DNA of 64,000 bases from Desulfatirhabdium butyrativorans DSM 18734. Lineage in GTDB: Bacteria; Desulfobacterota; Desulfobacteria; Desulfobacterales; Desulfatirhabdiaceae. The translations under genes and the position numbers were made by a program. Positions 35,450-41,549 of this stretch are shown piece after piece. The first letter of the stretch is position 1, and each line of letters starts with the position of its first letter. Location of the stretch: assembly GCF_000429925.1 (NCBI RefSeq), contig NZ_KE386985.1, forward strand, positions 121,225 to 185,224, read 5' to 3'. The notes beneath the pieces were generated by a model, which made no database searches, had not been told where the DNA came from, and saw nothing but the letters and a program-made list of their open reading frames with translations.

Positions 35450-36820
35450 TTATCCGATCAATTTGCGAATTCCGTCAATCAGGCGGGTCTCGTCTGCATC
35501 CTGTGCCATGACATCATATTTCAAGAGGGCCGGTTTGTCGAATGGAAGCTTCGAGGCCTTCAGATACCGCTCCACTTCGGAACCGCCCGGGCTTGTCCCC
35601 GATGCCACGATGGTAATCCCCACCCTTGCGGCGTATCCGAGCATTGCCGTCAGCGCCGGGATGGTTTCCTTTCCGCCGCTGTCCCAGTCGTCGCCGTCCG
35701 TTCCGTGAAACACGTAGATGTTGTAATCGGCAGCCAGGTTTTCCTTTTCGACGATCTGGTTGACCAGTTTGTAAGCCGATGCCACCATCGTCCCCCCGGC
35801 CACCCGGGAATTGTAGTAGGTATTGAAATCCGGCACTTCCTTTGCCGTCGTATCGTGCAGGATGAATCGGGTTTCCACCTGCTTTTCGTACTGATAGAGC
35901 AGCCACGCATAGATCAGCACGTGCTGGGAGACCACCAGCTCTGTGGGTTTTCCGGTCATGGATCCGCTGTAGTCCCGGATAAAAAAGACCATGGCCTGGG
36001 ATTCGTAGTCCTTTTCCCGGGATAGGATGCGATAGACCTTGTCTCTTGGGCCGATCATCAGATCGGTCGGATCGATTTCCCGGGACGGGTCGACCGTGCC
36101 GAGAGCGATGTTGGTCTGGACGATCTTTTTGAGGGTTGCCTTCTTGTCGAGCAGTTGGCCAAAACCCCGGTGTCGGTCCGTCAGATCGTAGACATATTTG
36201 CTGAAGGCCCGTTTCTTGCCTTTGTCCTTGAGGTTCGGGAGTTCGAATTTTTCGGTGAGGATTTTGCCCAGATCATAGGCGCTCGACTCGATTTCATGGT
36301 TTTCCGTATCTCCTTGTCCGGGCCCTTGCCCTGCGCCTTGCTGGGGCCGGACGGGTTCTTCGCCGATGACTTCCCCTTCTTCGCCCTCACCCGATCCGCC
36401 GGAAGAATCGGGATGCTTGGGGTCGGCCGTGCTGTCATGGATCAGTTTTTCCTCGACGGTCGTCGGTACGACGACGACCTTGTCCTTTCCACCCCTGCCC
36501 GGCTTGATCAGCCTGCCGACCCGGATCTTCTTCGGGAACCCGTCCTTCTCCCGCTGCCTGTCCCGCTCCAGCAGTTCTTCGAGCGACTGCAGCCGGACAT
36601 CCGGTGAGGGCATGGACGGCCGAATGTCCTGCAGCAGGATCAGATCGGCCCAGTCCCGAAGTCGGCGGAGGAGATGCTCTTTCCCCGAATGCCCGCGGGC
36701 TTCTTCCGGTTCGGCCCCGTTTTCGATCATCTCCAGTTCCCGCTGGATCACGATCCGCTGCGCCTCATCCAGCCCACGGGCCTTCAATCGTTCGATCAGC
36801 GCGATGTCGTCGGGTTTCAT
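35450..36820 (-). CDS. yeaH: YeaH/YhbH family (DUF444) protein
   Basis: This 456-residue protein has the DUF444 profile: a positively charged N-terminal part, a flexible Gly/Glu-rich stretch (SSGGSGEGEEGEVIGE), and a vWA-like domain with FFIRDYSGSMTGKPTE (MIDAS-type DxSGS) and VFHGTDGDDWDSGG. It acts with PrkA in stationary-phase and nitrogen-stress signalling in E. coli. The ATG at 36820 overlaps the stop of the transposase-like gene by 4 bases. In related operons it directly follows prkA. Confidence 0.9.
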   Translation of the reverse strand: MKPDDIALIERLKARGLDEAQRIVIQRELEMIENGAEPEEARGHSGKEHLLRRLRDWADLILLQDIRPSMPSPDVRLQSLEELLERDRQREKDGFPKKIRVGRLIKPGRGGKDKVVVVPTTVEEKLIHDSTADPKHPDSSGGSGEGEEGEVIGEEPVRPQQGAGQGPGQGDTENHEIESSAYDLGKILTEKFELPNLKDKGKKRAFSKYVYDLTDRHRGFGQLLDKKATLKKIVQTNIALGTVDPSREIDPTDLMIGPRDKVYRILSREKDYESQAMVFFIRDYSGSMTGKPTELVVSQHVLIYAWLLYQYEKQVETRFILHDTTAKEVPDFNTYYNSRVAGGTMVASAYKLVNQIVEKENLAADYNIYVFHGTDGDDWDSGGKETIPALTAMLGYAARVGITIVASGTSPGGSEVERYLKASKLPFDKPALLKYDVMAQDADETRLIDGIRKLIG

Positions 36821-37362
36821 GAGGAGTCCCCCCAAATGAACAACGTGTCCAAAAACCATTGTTTGGGATTGTTTTGGACATATTTACGGAGTTGGTGCAA
36901 TTCCGTTTCGTTGCGGACAATGTGTTCCCAATAACTGCGTTGCCATAATTTCCTGCCGGGGGTATTCTCTAAATCATTCACCCGTTTCGTGACAGCCGAT
37001 TTGAATCCGGCTATGACCGCCCCGACAGACCGTGGTTGTGGTCCTGTAGGGGCGACCGGCCGGTCGCCCCTACCTTTCGACATGGAAACGGAATTGGTGA
37101 TTAAAAAAATCGCGTGAAAATGATTGGGCATTACCATCCAGTTATCCAATTCAATTTCATGGCGAATTGTGGCGGTTTTCATCCATTCGTCGGCGACGAT
37201 TTTTCCAACGTCGTTCAACCGCATTTCTCCGTCTACGATTTCCCCGAACAGGCATTCCTGATGATGTGTGCAGGTCGTGATGAAATATGCCCCTTTTTTC
37301 GAATAATCGTATCCATGAAGCCGGATGGAACGGCGGTGATGAATGGCCGGATCAAATTTCAC
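36817..37362 (-). CDS. REP-associated tyrosine transposase (RAYT, Y1_Tnp)
   Basis: This 181-residue HUH nuclease has LHGYDYSKKGAYFITTCTHHQ at the start, WMVMPNHFHAIF with the HxH metal site, and RKYVQNNPKQW with the probable catalytic Tyr. RAYTs are related to IS200/IS605 transposases and are linked to REP hairpins, which are plentiful in this window. GAGGAGG follows the prkA stop 12 bases before the GTG at 37360-37362, and the stop overlaps yeaH. The gene thus forms part of a prkA-RAYT-yeaH transcript and appears intact. Confidence 0.87.
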   Translation of the reverse strand: MKFDPAIHHRRSIRLHGYDYSKKGAYFITTCTHHQECLFGEIVDGEMRLNDVGKIVADEWMKTATIRHEIELDNWMVMPNHFHAIFLITNSVSMSKGRGDRPVAPTGPQPRSVGAVIAGFKSAVTKRVNDLENTPGRKLWQRSYWEHIVRNETELHQLRKYVQNNPKQWFLDTLFIWGDSS

Positions 37363-37382
37363 GGCGTCTGCGATCCTCCTCT

Positions 37383-39440
37383 TTACTGCTCGTCCTCCTG
37401 GGTGCAGAAATACTCGATCGTTTTCTGGGCGCAGGTCTGGCAGTAGCCAAGCTTGTTCAGCATGGTCGTGATCATCCGGTCGTAGAGCTTCTGATTTTCC
37501 TCGTTGGTCCGATTGGCCAGGGCGCCGATCAGGCTGCCGGCCCCGGCAATGTCGGATTTGAGGCGCACATCCGTAATGGCCTTCACCAGTTCCAGGTTGT
37601 CCATGAAATCGTAATTGGGATCGACCGAAATCTTCTGCCCGTAAATCTTGCGGATCGAGGTGCGGAAGGTTTCCCGCTGCTCCCGGGTTTTCAGCCCCAG
37701 CCGCTCTTCCACGCTGTTGATGTAACGCTCGTCGATCTTGATCGCCTTCAGCTCGCCGGTCTGCGGGTCCTTGTATTTCCACATCTTGTCGGGGCCGAGG
37801 TTTTCCGCATCCACGCCGATGATCATGTTGACATAGTTGAGCACATCTTTCCGGATGGCCAGGGGCTCGTCCATGTAGGCATTGAACATTTCGGTCATGA
37901 TCCGTTCCCGGTAGAGCCCCTTGGCGATTTTGAGATCCTCGAGGTATTTGATCCGATCGTTGGCGTCGTTGACATAGTCGAGCACGATACGCTCAAGCGC
38001 CTTGAACACATCGTATGCGAACATGCAGCGGCCTTCGTTCGTTTCGGAACTTTCGACCAGAAGCTGAATGGCCCGGCCCAGATTCCGCTGGCCAAGACCT
38101 TTTTGGCCGAAGCGGCGGGTGATATCCGGATCCTGCGCCAGGGTGTCGATGACCTCGGCCAGTGTTTTGATGCTCTTTTCACCGGCGATATCGCCTGCGG
38201 CAAGCTTCAGGGTTTCCACGGGGGTGAGTTTTTCGCTTCGGGGCAGCCTGCTCAGCACAACGGCGATGGAAGCCGCATAGTTGAGGTTGGGGTCCTGGTG
38301 GAGGGCTTCCCTCGTCAGGGTGGTTCGGGTTTCGGAGCCGATGGCGTAGGCGGTGAGAAATTTCTGCAGCTTGTAGTTGGTGTTGTGGGATACATAGCAG
38401 ATGCGGCACCTGTCGACGATCGGGGCTTCTTCTTTTTCATTCAGAAACTTGTTGAACTCGTTGTTGTTGCTGGTTGCCAGAATCAGCGTGTCGATCGGCC
38501 ATTTGTATCCGTCGATCTCGATGGTCCGGTTCTGGATGACCCCGAGGTAGACCTGAACCAGGTCTTTCTTGTTCTTGAAGATTTCGTCGCTGAAATGAAT
38601 GCCGCCGCCGGCCACCCGGGCCAGGGCTCCCCGGCGCAGATCGAAGCGGTAGGGGTTGTTCGTATCGGTGATGTGCAGGAGCCGCTGAATGGATTCTTCT
38701 CCCAGCAGATCTACGGCGGATGATGTGATCTTGTCCTTGGCCGGGTATTTTCCGGTGATTGTCCCGAGGCTTTCGGTCAACGGAACCGGCAGAATCTCCA
38801 CCTGCTCGAGCATCCTGGCGATCTGTCCCTGCCGAAACGTTCGGATATCATTCCAGATGTACTGACTGCAGGCGCCCAGCGGACGGTAATTTTCCATCAG
38901 AGCGGCGATCTGGGCGTCTGTGAAGCCGAGGGTCTCCTGGAGAAAGCCGAGGCTTTCCTCGCGGCTTTCGAACAGATTCAGAGCGAGAATTGCCGGATCT
39001 TCATATGTCTGGGATTCGATGGCGGAAATTCTTCCGTATGTCCCGATGGCATCGAGCCCGGTGAATCGAAACGTATATTTCCGGTTCTTGGGCTCTTGCA
39101 GGAATTCCCGGTATCGGGCGCAGAGAAACTCCACGAAATAGGTTTTGCCGTTTCCGGGTTCACCCACCAGAACGAATGCCATTTCCTTTGAGGAGCCGCC
39201 TTCCGCCGCATCTTTCACATAGGAGACAAAGCTGTTGATTTCATCGTACATGCCGATGATGTGTTTTTTCCCTTTGCGAAAGATCTGAAAATCGTAAGTC
39301 GTTTTGCCGTTGACCACGACTTTGCTGATTTCCTCTTCCAGGATCATTCGCGCGATGCTCTGGAAGGCGTTTTCGAAGGATCGCCGGCCGGATTGCAATT
39401 CGTTGAGATGGTGGGCGAGCGAATTGGGCTTGTCGTTCAT
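37383..39440 (-). CDS. prkA: PrkA serine protein kinase / AAA protein
   Basis: This 685-residue protein has the PrkA AAA domain: FVLVGEPGNGKTYFVEFLCARYREF is Walker A, and GIHFSDEIFKNKKDLVQVYLG the Walker B region. TLILATSNNNEFNKFLNEKEEAPIVDRC, and a kinase-like C-terminal region from about residue 430 follow. The usual length is 640-690. The ATG at 39440 has AGGAGG about 9 bases upstream. PrkA proteins are implicated in sporulation in Bacillus and in stress response in E. coli; both kinase and protease roles have been proposed. Confidence 0.93.
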   Translation of the reverse strand: MNDKPNSLAHHLNELQSGRRSFENAFQSIARMILEEEISKVVVNGKTTYDFQIFRKGKKHIIGMYDEINSFVSYVKDAAEGGSSKEMAFVLVGEPGNGKTYFVEFLCARYREFLQEPKNRKYTFRFTGLDAIGTYGRISAIESQTYEDPAILALNLFESREESLGFLQETLGFTDAQIAALMENYRPLGACSQYIWNDIRTFRQGQIARMLEQVEILPVPLTESLGTITGKYPAKDKITSSAVDLLGEESIQRLLHITDTNNPYRFDLRRGALARVAGGGIHFSDEIFKNKKDLVQVYLGVIQNRTIEIDGYKWPIDTLILATSNNNEFNKFLNEKEEAPIVDRCRICYVSHNTNYKLQKFLTAYAIGSETRTTLTREALHQDPNLNYAASIAVVLSRLPRSEKLTPVETLKLAAGDIAGEKSIKTLAEVIDTLAQDPDITRRFGQKGLGQRNLGRAIQLLVESSETNEGRCMFAYDVFKALERIVLDYVNDANDRIKYLEDLKIAKGLYRERIMTEMFNAYMDEPLAIRKDVLNYVNMIIGVDAENLGPDKMWKYKDPQTGELKAIKIDERYINSVEERLGLKTREQRETFRTSIRKIYGQKISVDPNYDFMDNLELVKAITDVRLKSDIAGAGSLIGALANRTNEENQKLYDRMITTMLNKLGYCQTCAQKTIEYFCTQEDEQ

Positions 39441-39654
39441 GGCGGACACCTCCTGTGTAGGGTGCAGGACCGGATGCCACGCGGCAGCTTTGCACAGAGG
39501 CTGCCTTGCAGTAACGGGCCGTTATCAAGAAGGAGCGCTACGGTTGATCGAAGCTATGAAAACATTGCATCAAAGTCAAGATAAAACCAGGTCGCCTATA
39601 AAGCGGGATAGCAGGCAGCAGAGCTTCTCGGCATAAAAAATAAGCAAACCGCTT

Positions 39655-39683
39655 TTGACAAAGCTTCCCTGACGGTTTATTCT
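39655..39683 (+). promoter_or_regulatory. Sigma-70-type promoter for the cytidylate kinase-like/selenoprotein genes
   Basis: TTGACA at 39655-39660, a 17-base spacer, then TATTCT at 39678-39683. The start codon is about 40 bases downstream. The preceding bases 39600-39654 are A-rich. This is the best sigma-70 match I found in the window. Confidence 0.6.
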
Positions 39684-39729
39684 TTGCCATCGTTGATCAT
39701 CTGAAATTTGCGGACAGAAAGGACTGCGC

Positions 39730-40575
39730 ATGCCCATCATCACCATTTCAAGAGGTTCCTACAGCAGAGGAAAGGAAGTAGCCGAAAGGGTCGCATCGGC
39801 GCTGGGGTACCGATGCATATCCCGGGATATCCTGCTCGATGCTTCCGAAGAATTCAATCTCCCGGAGATCAAGCTGATCCGGGCGCTTCACGATGCCCCA
39901 TCGGTGCTGGAGCGATTCACATACGGCAAGGAGCGTTATATCAACTATATCCGCTCCGCGCTTCTGCAGCAGGTGCAGGGAGACAATGTCGTTTATCACG
40001 GTCTTGCCGGTCATTTTCTGCTCGCCAACATCCCGCATGTGCTCAAGGTGCGGATCATTGCGGACATGAACGACCGGGTCCGGGAAGAGATGAAGCGGGA
40101 AAAGATTTCCGAGGAAACGGCCCGCTACATTCTTTCCAAGGACGACGAAGAACGCCGGAAATGGGGCATCCAGGTGTATGGCGCCGATACCTGGGATTCC
40201 CGGCTCTACGACATGGTCTTGAAGATCAAAACCCTCTCTGTCGAGGATGCGGCCGACCTGATCGTGGAGACTGCCCGAAAACCGGCGTTTCAGATGACAC
40301 CGGATGACCTGAAGAGGCTCAGGGATATGGCATTGGCCGCACGCGTTCAGGCAACCCTGGGAAACCTCATTCCCAGTATCCAGGTGTATGCCGAAGATGG
40401 CGCCGTGACCCTGTGCAACATTCATGTCAATGTATCTCTGGAAACCAATGTTCTGGAGGAGGCGAAACAGATGGCCGAAGCAATGGATGGGGTCAAGTCG
40501 GTCGTTCTGAACATGACGCCAAAATCCGAAGATTGCCAGCACATCAATCCGTTTTACAACATCAACTGCAAATAG
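39730..40575 (+). CDS. Cytidylate kinase-like family protein with C-terminal added domain
   Basis: This 281-residue protein opens with PIITISRGSYSRGKEVAERVA, the P-loop region of the cytidylate kinase-like (COG1102-type) family, and has RDILLDASEEF, VYHGLAGHFLL and LKVRIIADMNDRV in the expected order. The P-loop is divergent: SRGSYSRGKE has no GKS/GKT ending, so ATP use is unproven. Residues 200-281 form a separate domain with paired strands (VYAEDGAVTLCNIHVNVS, GVKSVVLNM) like a small BON or metal-transport fold, and two Cys near the end. It leads the unit with the first selenoprotein, whose ATG is 9 bases after its stop. Confidence 0.75.
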   Translation: MPIITISRGSYSRGKEVAERVASALGYRCISRDILLDASEEFNLPEIKLIRALHDAPSVLERFTYGKERYINYIRSALLQQVQGDNVVYHGLAGHFLLANIPHVLKVRIIADMNDRVREEMKREKISEETARYILSKDDEERRKWGIQVYGADTWDSRLYDMVLKIKTLSVEDAADLIVETARKPAFQMTPDDLKRLRDMALAARVQATLGNLIPSIQVYAEDGAVTLCNIHVNVSLETNVLEEAKQMAEAMDGVKSVVLNMTPKSEDCQHINPFYNINCK

Positions 40576-40584
40576 CCGGTCATC

Positions 40585-40839
40585 ATGGAGTCATTGATCT
40601 GTTACTGTTTTGGGTATTCCGCGGCGGATATCGAGGACGATGTTCGCAGGAATGGCAAATCGACGATTCTCGAGCGGATCGTCCGGGAGAAAAAGGCAGG
40701 TGGCTGCCATTGCGTCACCAAAAACCCGAAAGGAAGATGATGCCTTGCCGATGTTCGCCAGGTGGTGGACAAGGCGGGTGCAGAAATCGGTATTTCGAGC
40801 CGGGCAAAAAACGGCGCTCCCGTTCAGGTGCCTTGGTGA
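40585..40839 (+). CDS. Selenoprotein: CopZ/BFD-like iron-sulfur domain with Sec in place of a Cys
   Basis: Read through the in-frame TGA at 40738-40740, this encodes 84 residues with Sec52. The protein has CYC (Cys6, Cys8), GKSTILERIV, CHC (Cys41, Cys43), then NPKGR-Sec-CLADV. This matches the [2Fe-2S] BFD-like domain of CopZ-type metallochaperones, where the same site reads NPxGxCCLGDV, so Sec replaces the first Cys of the CC pair. Sequence resemblance continues on both sides of the TGA, and a SECIS-like hairpin follows it. Standard reading would give a 51-residue fragment. The ribosome site is weak, so coupling to the kinase-like gene is likely. Confidence 0.85.
40742..40775 (+). promoter_or_regulatory. 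Candidate bacterial SECIS hairpin for the first selenoprotein
   Basis: Just after the TGA, GCCTTG (40742-40747) pairs with CAAGGC (40770-40775). Above a 5' bulge CCGATG, TTCGCC (40754-40759) pairs with GGTGGA (40764-40769), allowing G-U pairs. The apical loop AGGT starts 20 bases after the TGA and has G in its second position, as bacterial SECIS elements need. Confidence 0.7.
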
Positions 40840-40860
40840 GCCCCGATATTCGGATCGTTA

Positions 40861-40966
40861 TTGACTTTCGTTATAGGGCGCATTACCTTATTCACTAAAG
40901 GAACGATTGCATGGGGCGATCGGATGTCATTCAGGGGCTGCAGAAAAAGGCAGACCCCATTTTTTT
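40861..40966 (+). promoter_or_regulatory. Attenuator-like leader before the HesB-type selenoprotein
   Basis: A possible promoter (TTGACT at 40861, 17 bases, TACCTT at 40884) is followed by an intrinsic terminator. GGGGCTGC (40934-40941) pairs with GCAG-A-CCCC (40950-40958), then seven T. The gene's GAGGAGG site begins right after. ATGGGG at 40911-40916 could pair with CCCCAT (40955-40960) and compete with the terminator. Transcripts from this promoter must therefore pass a terminator, which suggests control by attenuation. The hairpin could instead simply end the upstream unit. Confidence 0.5.
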
Positions 40967-40980
40967 CTGAGGAGGCAATC

Positions 40981-41298
40981 ATGTTTGAGGTCAGCAAATC
41001 GGCTACAGAAGCCATTTCCGAATATTTCCGGGGGAAAAAGCCGGTTCCAATACGGGTTTTTCTGAACGAAGGCGGCTGAGGCGGGCCAAGCCTGGCGATG
41101 GCTCTGGATGAGCCTCGGGACAACGATGCAACGTATGAGATCGACGGGTTTACCTATCTGGTGGACAAGGACTTCATGGCCAAGGCACAACCCATCAAGA
41201 TCGACTATATGGTCAGCGGGTTCAAGCTCGATTGCGGCATCGACTTCGGTGCATCATCGGGAGGATGCTCGAGCTGCGGAAGCGGCACATGCGGTTGA
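40981..41298 (+). CDS. Selenoprotein: HesB/IscA-like protein with Sec33
   Basis: Read through the TGA at 41077-41079, this encodes 105 residues. PIRVFLNEGG-Sec-GGPSLAMAL aligns with the GCSGxSY segment of IscA/HesB scaffold proteins, with Sec at the first cluster-binding Cys. LDEPRDNDATYEIDGFTYLVDK and IDYMVSGFKLDCGIDF continue the family. The C-terminal end GGCSSCGSGTCG replaces the usual CGCG motif with four Cys. HesB-like selenoproteins are known from Desulfobacterota. GAGGAGG lies about 7 bases before the ATG. Likely roles are Fe-S assembly or selenium/sulfur redox chemistry. A bidirectional terminator follows. Confidence 0.92.
41078..41116 (+). promoter_or_regulatory. Candidate SECIS hairpin for the HesB-like selenoprotein
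   Basis: GAGGC, starting within the TGA at 41078, pairs with GCCTC (41112-41116). Above it CCAAGCC (41086-41092) pairs with GGCT-C-TGG (41100-41107) with one bulged C. The loop TGGCGAT begins 14 bases after the TGA, with G second. Confidence 0.65.
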
Positions 41299-41327
41299 TC
41301 GAACGATCCTGACCACTCGAAATCAAC

Positions 41328-41370
41328 GTCCCGGAACGGCAAACAATCTGAAGCCGTCCCGGGACAATTT
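41328..41370. terminator. Bidirectional terminator between HesB-like gene and tatA
   Basis: GTCCCGGAACGGC (41328-41340) and GCCGTCCCGGGAC (41353-41365) form a 13-base stem with one mismatch around a 12-base loop. AATTTT follows on the plus strand. The genes on both sides converge here. Confidence 0.75.
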
Positions 41371-41549
41371 TATGCGTTTTTCTTTTCTTCGATTTTATCC
41401 TTTTCCTTCTTTTCCTCGGATGTGGCCTCCTTGAAATTCCGGATGGCCTTTCCAAGTCCACCGCCGATTTCCGGAAGTTTTCCTGCTCCGAAAATGATCA
41501 GTACGATCACCAGAATCACCACCAACTCGGACATTCCCAAACCGAACAT
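41370..41549 (-). CDS. tatA: Twin-arginine translocase subunit TatA/TatE
   Basis: This 59-residue protein has the single TatA membrane helix ([19 protein letters not shown]), the hinge [19 protein letters not shown] with the conserved FGxxKLP turn, and a charged amphipathic tail. TatA forms the translocation pore for folded proteins such as cofactor-bearing oxidoreductases. GGAGG precedes the ATG. No tatC lies nearby. It follows the zinc-ribbon gene by 8 bases. Confidence 0.92.

Follow-up and report, generated by a model that had tools for sequence, protein, structure and literature searches.

Three genes stand in a row on the forward strand of the Desulfatirhabdium butyrativorans DSM 18734 genome, two of them with an in-frame TGA, and this raises the question of whether they form a system or are merely neighbours. 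A preliminary description of the 64,000-nt stretch analysed here (the window) had proposed a selenium-dependent system for Fe-S or metal handling. The three open reading frames are indeed present in that order. Gene 1 (39730..40575, + strand) encodes a 281-aa protein of the Cytidylate_kin2 (PF13189) family; gene 2 (40585..40839, + strand) encodes an 84-aa selenoprotein with the pattern CxC...CxC...UC and a predicted CopZ/BFD-like [2Fe-2S]-type domain; gene 3 (40981..41298, + strand) encodes a 105-aa selenoprotein of the IscA/HesB family with the motif UGGP. The gene 1 stop is separated from the gene 2 start by 9 nt and gene 2 from gene 3 by 141 nt. Two selenoprotein genes adjoining in one window are weak evidence of joint function. 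On balance we lean towards a two-part explanation, in which the neighbourhood is a lineage-specific one of three unrelated genes and the gene 2 family carries soft metal(loid)s.

The domain encoded by gene 2 was compared with profiles and structures. It matched NF047645 (CopZ_Nterm_CC) with 57.8 bits, over positions 85-137 of 138 only and short of the cut-off of 100, and PF04324 (Fer2_BFD) with 22.2 bits, below the gathering score of 26. The three best Foldseek matches in the PDB to its AF2 model (pLDDT 82) were all Bfd, with a TM score of 0.65 by target and E values of 1.4-1.7. Judged from profiles and model, the domain is likely Bfd/CopZ-like. In a weak alignment with Archaeoglobus fulgidus CopZ (2hu9; E 0.14 and 0.03), C6, C8, C43 and C53 of gene 2 fall opposite C75, C77, C109 and C119, which we take to be the [2Fe-2S] ligands of CopZ. 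Sec52, encoded by the TGA at codon 52 (40738..40740, + strand), a column conserved in homologues, falls opposite C118, the first Cys of the CC pair, and C41 has no Cys counterpart. The selenocysteine had been thought to replace a cluster cysteine; since it corresponds to C118 while the presumed cluster ligand is C119, it probably lies beside the ligand instead. The GRUC at residues 50-53 corresponds to the GxUC motif of CopZ-family form 1, which agrees with membership of a selenoprotein family that is known but uncharacterised.

Relatives of gene 2 were taken from 47 loci in genomes of the organism's class and from 80 loci of a named collection (the best 80 of 152 relatives); 15 were common to both, which left 112 non-redundant loci. 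The neighbour clusters around the named loci (best 80 of 152) comprised ArsR, an ArsP-type permease, ACR3, LMW-type ArsC, ArsM, MerA and MerR, labels that were assigned first by eye and then partly checked by HMM. Ars/mer HMMs were built from these named-set clusters, and 40 loci around gene 3 homologues, from class genomes only, served as controls. An ars/mer gene was found within 3 kb in 26 of the 80 named loci (best 80 of 152) and in 4 of 32 further class loci, together 30/112 compared with 0/40 controls (p 3e-5; the named part again the best 80 of 152). Within 10 kb the counts were 37/112 and 1/40; when only ArsP, ACR3, ArsC and TIGR02053-verified MerA within 3 kb were counted, they were 21/112 and 0/40 (p 0.0009); and at least two different ars/mer families within 5 kb were found in 18/112 gene 2 loci and 0/40 controls, the named loci in all three counts being the best 80 of 152. 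Because the HMMs were trained on neighbours of the named set, the named comparison is partly circular; the class genomes are the fairer test, and this test is much weaker (6/47 gene 2 loci with an ars/mer gene within 3 kb compared with 0/40 controls, p 0.02).

The signal became clear only once the 80 named loci (best 80 of 152) were added. Apart from a few ArsM-like genes, the 10 kb around the class loci held nothing but general families, and no conserved neighbour family was found within 1.5 kb of 30 gene 2 loci (own included), the clusters there overlapping gene 2. Overall, 82 of the 112 loci (80 of them the best 80 of 152 named) had no ars/mer gene within 3 kb, and in 36 of the 80 named loci (best 80 of 152) less than 3 kb was available on at least one side. 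Singly, MerR, RND, TauE, DoxX/MauE and ArsC showed no enrichment at p 0.05 around gene 2.

The immediate same-strand neighbours of gene 2 in the named loci (best 80 of 152) amounted to 94 proteins, among which were ArsP_1 (6), ACR3 (5), MerA (5, fusion included), LMWPc (4), MerT (3), DsbD_TM (3), and chromate transporter, TauE and MauE (2 each). The order ArsR-ArsC-ArsP-gene 2 occurred in L211, L187 and L218, ArsC-ACR3-ArsP-gene 2 in L174, gene 2-ArsC-ACR3-ArsM in L110 and MerA-MerC-gene 2 in L155. The home-made MerA, ArsR and MerR models are broad. Six nearby MerA proteins (L147, L152, L155, L186, L113 and L132) all passed the TIGR02053 cut-off; the MerA labels of L164 (two ORFs), L162, L191 and L206 come from the broad home-made model only, and the genes so labelled in L162 and L191 resemble flavin disulfide reductases of other kinds. 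A MerA label in the class locus L125 proved false and was left out of the ars/mer counts. In L204 (9580-9975) and L199 (9616-9972), a CMD/AhpD-like gene, supported by a Pfam match in L204, lies directly upstream of the gene 2 homologue; the CMD/AhpD-like family also has selenoprotein members.

The copy in the window lies outside any ars/mer operon. Seven HMMs found no ars/mer gene in the whole 64 kb, and the single gene 2 copy of the genome shares its contig with neither of the two ACR3 loci. When homologues were ranked by score, the copies closest to it were not enriched for ars/mer context (9/28 compared with 22/84, p 0.35).

In one contig, the association with mercury genes extends to a single polypeptide. 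At L148:1806-3473, in a Myxococcales MAG, a UGA-containing gene 2-type domain forms the N-terminal part of an in-frame fusion with MerA, a 556-aa protein that passes TIGR02053 (568 bits; cut-off 454). This fusion is known from that one MAG contig. The N-terminal position on MerA is the one that NmerA, an HMA domain, holds, and from which it delivers Hg(II) to the catalytic site. Neither gene 2 nor the L148 fusion matched an HMA domain. A further candidate for an extra N-terminal domain on MerA, in L132, was rejected as an ORF extension.

The gene context suggests a metal role for the gene 2 family. The protein's scaffold would be Bfd/CopZ-like, with a [2Fe-2S] cluster or a metal held by C6, C8, C43 and C53, and the protein would bind soft metal(loid)s, Hg(II) or As(III), and pass them on. 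Capture of these ions would fall to an added soft-metal site formed by the extra pair C41/Sec52. The captured ion would then be delivered to the catalytic site of MerA, as NmerA does, or to the efflux permeases ArsP and ACR3. The isolated copy of D. butyrativorans may do the same job as the ars/mer-linked copies. Stated in full, the proposal is that a widespread family acts as a selenol-based Hg(II)/As(III) carrier replacing NmerA/MerP in anaerobes, with a cluster site and a C41/Sec52 capture site, and works both in trans and fused to MerA; in this form it is tentative, plausible rather than probable. The same context can be read in terms of redox chemistry, the family being a Bfd-like [2Fe-2S] electron carrier or a selenol-disulfide reductant for arsenate reductase, MerA or other redox enzymes, with no metal carriage. 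Sec is usually redox-active, and DsbD_TM (CcdA-like), MauE and DoxX proteins, which are known from thiol-redox relays, are among the immediate neighbours of gene 2; Bfd ferredoxins head the list of fold matches, albeit with E values above 1. However, ArsP, ACR3, MerT and MerC are transporters, and the L148 domain takes the very place of NmerA. We regard the redox reading as doubtful, although the Bfd resemblance and the DsbD_TM/MauE/DoxX neighbours give it real weight.

Whether the carrier proposed for the gene 2 family works together with genes 1 and 3 was judged from other gene 2 loci. Homologues of gene 1 or gene 3 (tblastn, E 1e-3) were found around gene 2 in none of the 47 class loci, up to 10 kb on each side, and in none of the 80 named loci (best 80 of 152), where flanks of at least 1 kb on both sides were available in 63/80 and of at least 3 kb on both sides in 44/80. 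Gene 2 was likewise beside gene 3 homologues in 0/40 gene 3 loci. Within the family, gene 2 occurred in 3 of 8 genomes (own included), and the other two lacked the gene order; the D. butyrativorans genome is the only representative of its genus among the eight sampled. Since no gene 1 or gene 3 homologue accompanied gene 2 in the 112 loci, a conserved three-gene system is not supported. The proposed selenium/Fe-S system thus gives way, the three genes not being neighbours in any of the other loci examined. The idea of metal handling survives for the gene 2 family alone, on the ars/mer linkage and the MerA fusion; no tie to it was found for either the kinase-like or the HesB-like gene. A functional unit could still be recent and restricted to the genus. 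The 9-nt gap and shared strand of genes 1 and 2 would agree with this, as would the sole sigma-70-like site in 39400-41500, which sits upstream of gene 1; but the number of promoter hits does not exceed what shuffled sequence gives, 141 nt precede gene 3, and genes 1 and 3 are beside gene 2 in none of the other loci examined, so that we consider such a unit improbable.

Read as unrelated neighbours, genes 1 and 3 each have a family identity of their own. Gene 1 passed PF13189 (152.1 bits, E 2e-44; gathering score 28) and fell short of the (d)CMP kinase model TIGR02173 (25.7 bits; curated cut-off 102.1). Its family signature is RGSYSRGKEVAE. The P-loop had been called degenerate; the motif RGSYSxGK, however, was present in 30/30 gene 1 homologue loci (own counted), and this form is therefore a family trait. 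The C-terminal stretch is weakly BON-like (15.9 bits, below the cut-off of 27), and the protein ends in NPFYNI. Matches to gene 1 were found in 167 of 192 genomes of the class, often several per genome, and tandem paralogues in 4/30 homologue loci; by profile match, gene 1 belongs to a group of several PF13189 kinase-like paralogues that are common among genomes of the class. A literature search on this kinase family found nothing. On the minus strand, a region of the window at 35450-39449 holds PrkA-like kinase and YeaH-like genes (labelled by eye), divergent from gene 1.

Gene 3 passed NF038090 (IscA_HesB_Se) with 111 bits (curated cut-off 85) and missed TIGR01911 (HesB_rel_seleno; 25.9 bits, curated cut-off 66.35). 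Its TGA (41077..41079, + strand), codon 33 and read as Sec33, was kept in 49 of 50 loci, a set that counts the own locus, represents some genomes twice and yields 41 distinct TGA sequences; in L242, from a genome of the same family (G010), a HesB-like relative has Cys for Sec. The SECIS apical stem-loop (41100..41114, + strand; GGCUC-UGGAU-GAGCC) has five stem pairs that are kept at 95-100% in the 41 distinct sequences. The earlier assignment as a Sec-containing HesB/IscA-like protein is borne out by the NF038090 match and the conserved TGA, and with matches in 176/192 class genomes, gene 3 is, as far as profiles tell, an unremarkable IscA/HesB-family selenoprotein. Around its relatives, an FmdB-like zinc ribbon (18/40 loci, upstream), a macro-domain-like protein (14/40, upstream) and an epimerase-like gene (15/40, downstream) were frequent, all labelled by eye; one representative of each of these three neighbours found no match in the window. 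Among the 40 gene 3 loci, L232 has a distant kinase paralogue about 6 kb from the gene 3 homologue. In five class genomes (G005, G025, G097, G099 and G110), close homologues of genes 1 and 3 are about 27-30 kb apart, perhaps an old shared region.

Selenocysteine coding was most extensively documented for gene 2. Matches at E 1e-3 were found in 58/192 class genomes. Below E 1e-12, an internal TGA was present in 50 of 51 matches in the 192 genomes (manual count), and 47/192 genomes (own included) held such a match. Of the 49 TGA-containing matches outside the own genome, 48 were fetched, and in these 48 class copies, from 46 other genomes and picked for having an internal TGA, the TGA fell at one alignment column in 48/48. 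The search pattern for the named collection allowed any residue at this position, and Sec occupied the same column in 80/80 named loci (best 80 of 152). Far from being confined to one sequence, the Sec codons are conserved in dozens of species, and the preliminary assignment of a selenoprotein holds for gene 2 as well. C41, C43 and C53 were invariant in 48/48 class copies and C6 and C8 in 47/48, the exception being cut by a contig end. The SECIS apical stem-loop (40753..40770, + strand; GUUCGCC (or GUCCGCC)-AGGU-GGUGGAC) lies 15 nt after the UGA, and the fold of 40730-40785 gave a z score of -4.6. Among 113 distinct gene 2 sequences, the stem pair +17/+30 was C-G in 95, U-A in 13, U-G in 4 and unpaired in 1, and the two positions were coupled (p 7e-14, relatedness ignored); because a change at +17, a third codon position, is synonymous, the coupling points to RNA structure. 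Conservation was lower for the outermost pair (99/113) and the innermost (89/113).

A search for a Cys-containing gene 2 homologue brought up one good match without the TGA (L271:4977-5201, genome G134), which has no in-frame ATG, GTG or TTG start and looks like a startless relic. It keeps C6, C8, C43 and C53 and has F and R at C41 and U52, a pattern that agrees with the proposed ligand split and is too weak to count. By eye, it is near MoaA-like and FmdE-like genes. In another genome (G137), a pair of oppositely oriented gene 2 paralogues, about 0.9 kb from each other, lies in L138 (contig C6, about 597640-598742), and a third copy is on another contig. That the TGAs are real stops or pseudogene lesions is very improbable: although the gene 3 SECIS, folded as a single sequence, scores weakly (z -1.0) and scanning the window with Rfam at gathering thresholds gave no match, the TGA is conserved at one column in relatives of both genes, the gene 2 stem shows compensatory changes, and the genome carries SelB, tRNA-Sec and SelA, all above cut-offs.

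Selenoprotein gene neighbourhoods were reportedly treated by Haft & Tolstoy in 2025. The families of genes 2 and 3 are both known already: Table 1 of PMC13188914 lists "copper chaperone Copz family form 1, GxUC" and "HesB-like, UxGP", and the tables of PMC9312934 include both. The passages compared from these two reviews give neither a function nor a neighbourhood for CopZ form 1; PMC13188914 speaks there of several selenoproteins related to transport that have been implicated in resistance to Hg/As and does not name CopZ form 1 among them. PMC2398784, the source cited for CopZ form 1, contains neither "CopZ" nor "2Fe-2S" in its main text. A MerP with Sec and a putative mercuric transport protein do appear in its lists; the involvement of selenoproteins in mercury handling is therefore, as such, no novelty. 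Term searches of PMC9402790, PMC12013277 and PMC5029168 gave no match. The link of the gene 2 family to ars/mer genes was not found in the passages searched and may already be in print; this link and the MerA fusion appear new relative to the literature passages compared. Through gene 2, a selenoprotein family that is still uncharacterised is tied by position, and once by fusion, to the detoxification of mercury and arsenic. If the proposal is true, a family given no function in the review passages would gain a concrete and easily tested one, and it would suggest why an organism would spend Sec on this protein, selenolates being very tight binders of Hg(II).

Compared with known systems, gene 2 shares its GxUC motif and probable CopZ/BFD-like domain with CopZ form 1 (cd10141; PMC13188914, PMC9312934). 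For gene 3, the UGGP motif agrees with the HesB-like UxGP of the reviews, whereas the protein misses their model, TIGR01911; only its neighbours in the window are unusual. The Csac_0668 family (NF045877, CopZ form 2) has the same domain type with Sec at the Cys pair, but its motif is CU where gene 2 has UC, and gene 2 scored 23.6 bits compared with a cut-off of 190. The N-terminal domain of A. fulgidus CopZ has Cys at the positions that align with the CxC, C43 and U52-C53 of gene 2; gene 2 differs from that protein in lacking its N-terminal half and HMA domain, in the extra C41 and in having Sec for C118. The closest parallel in proposed function is with NmerA/MerP, which are HMA-fold Hg(II) carriers, whereas gene 2 and the L148 fusion have no HMA match. 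The position of the L148 domain N-terminal to MerA, the siting in mer operons and the proposed job are alike.
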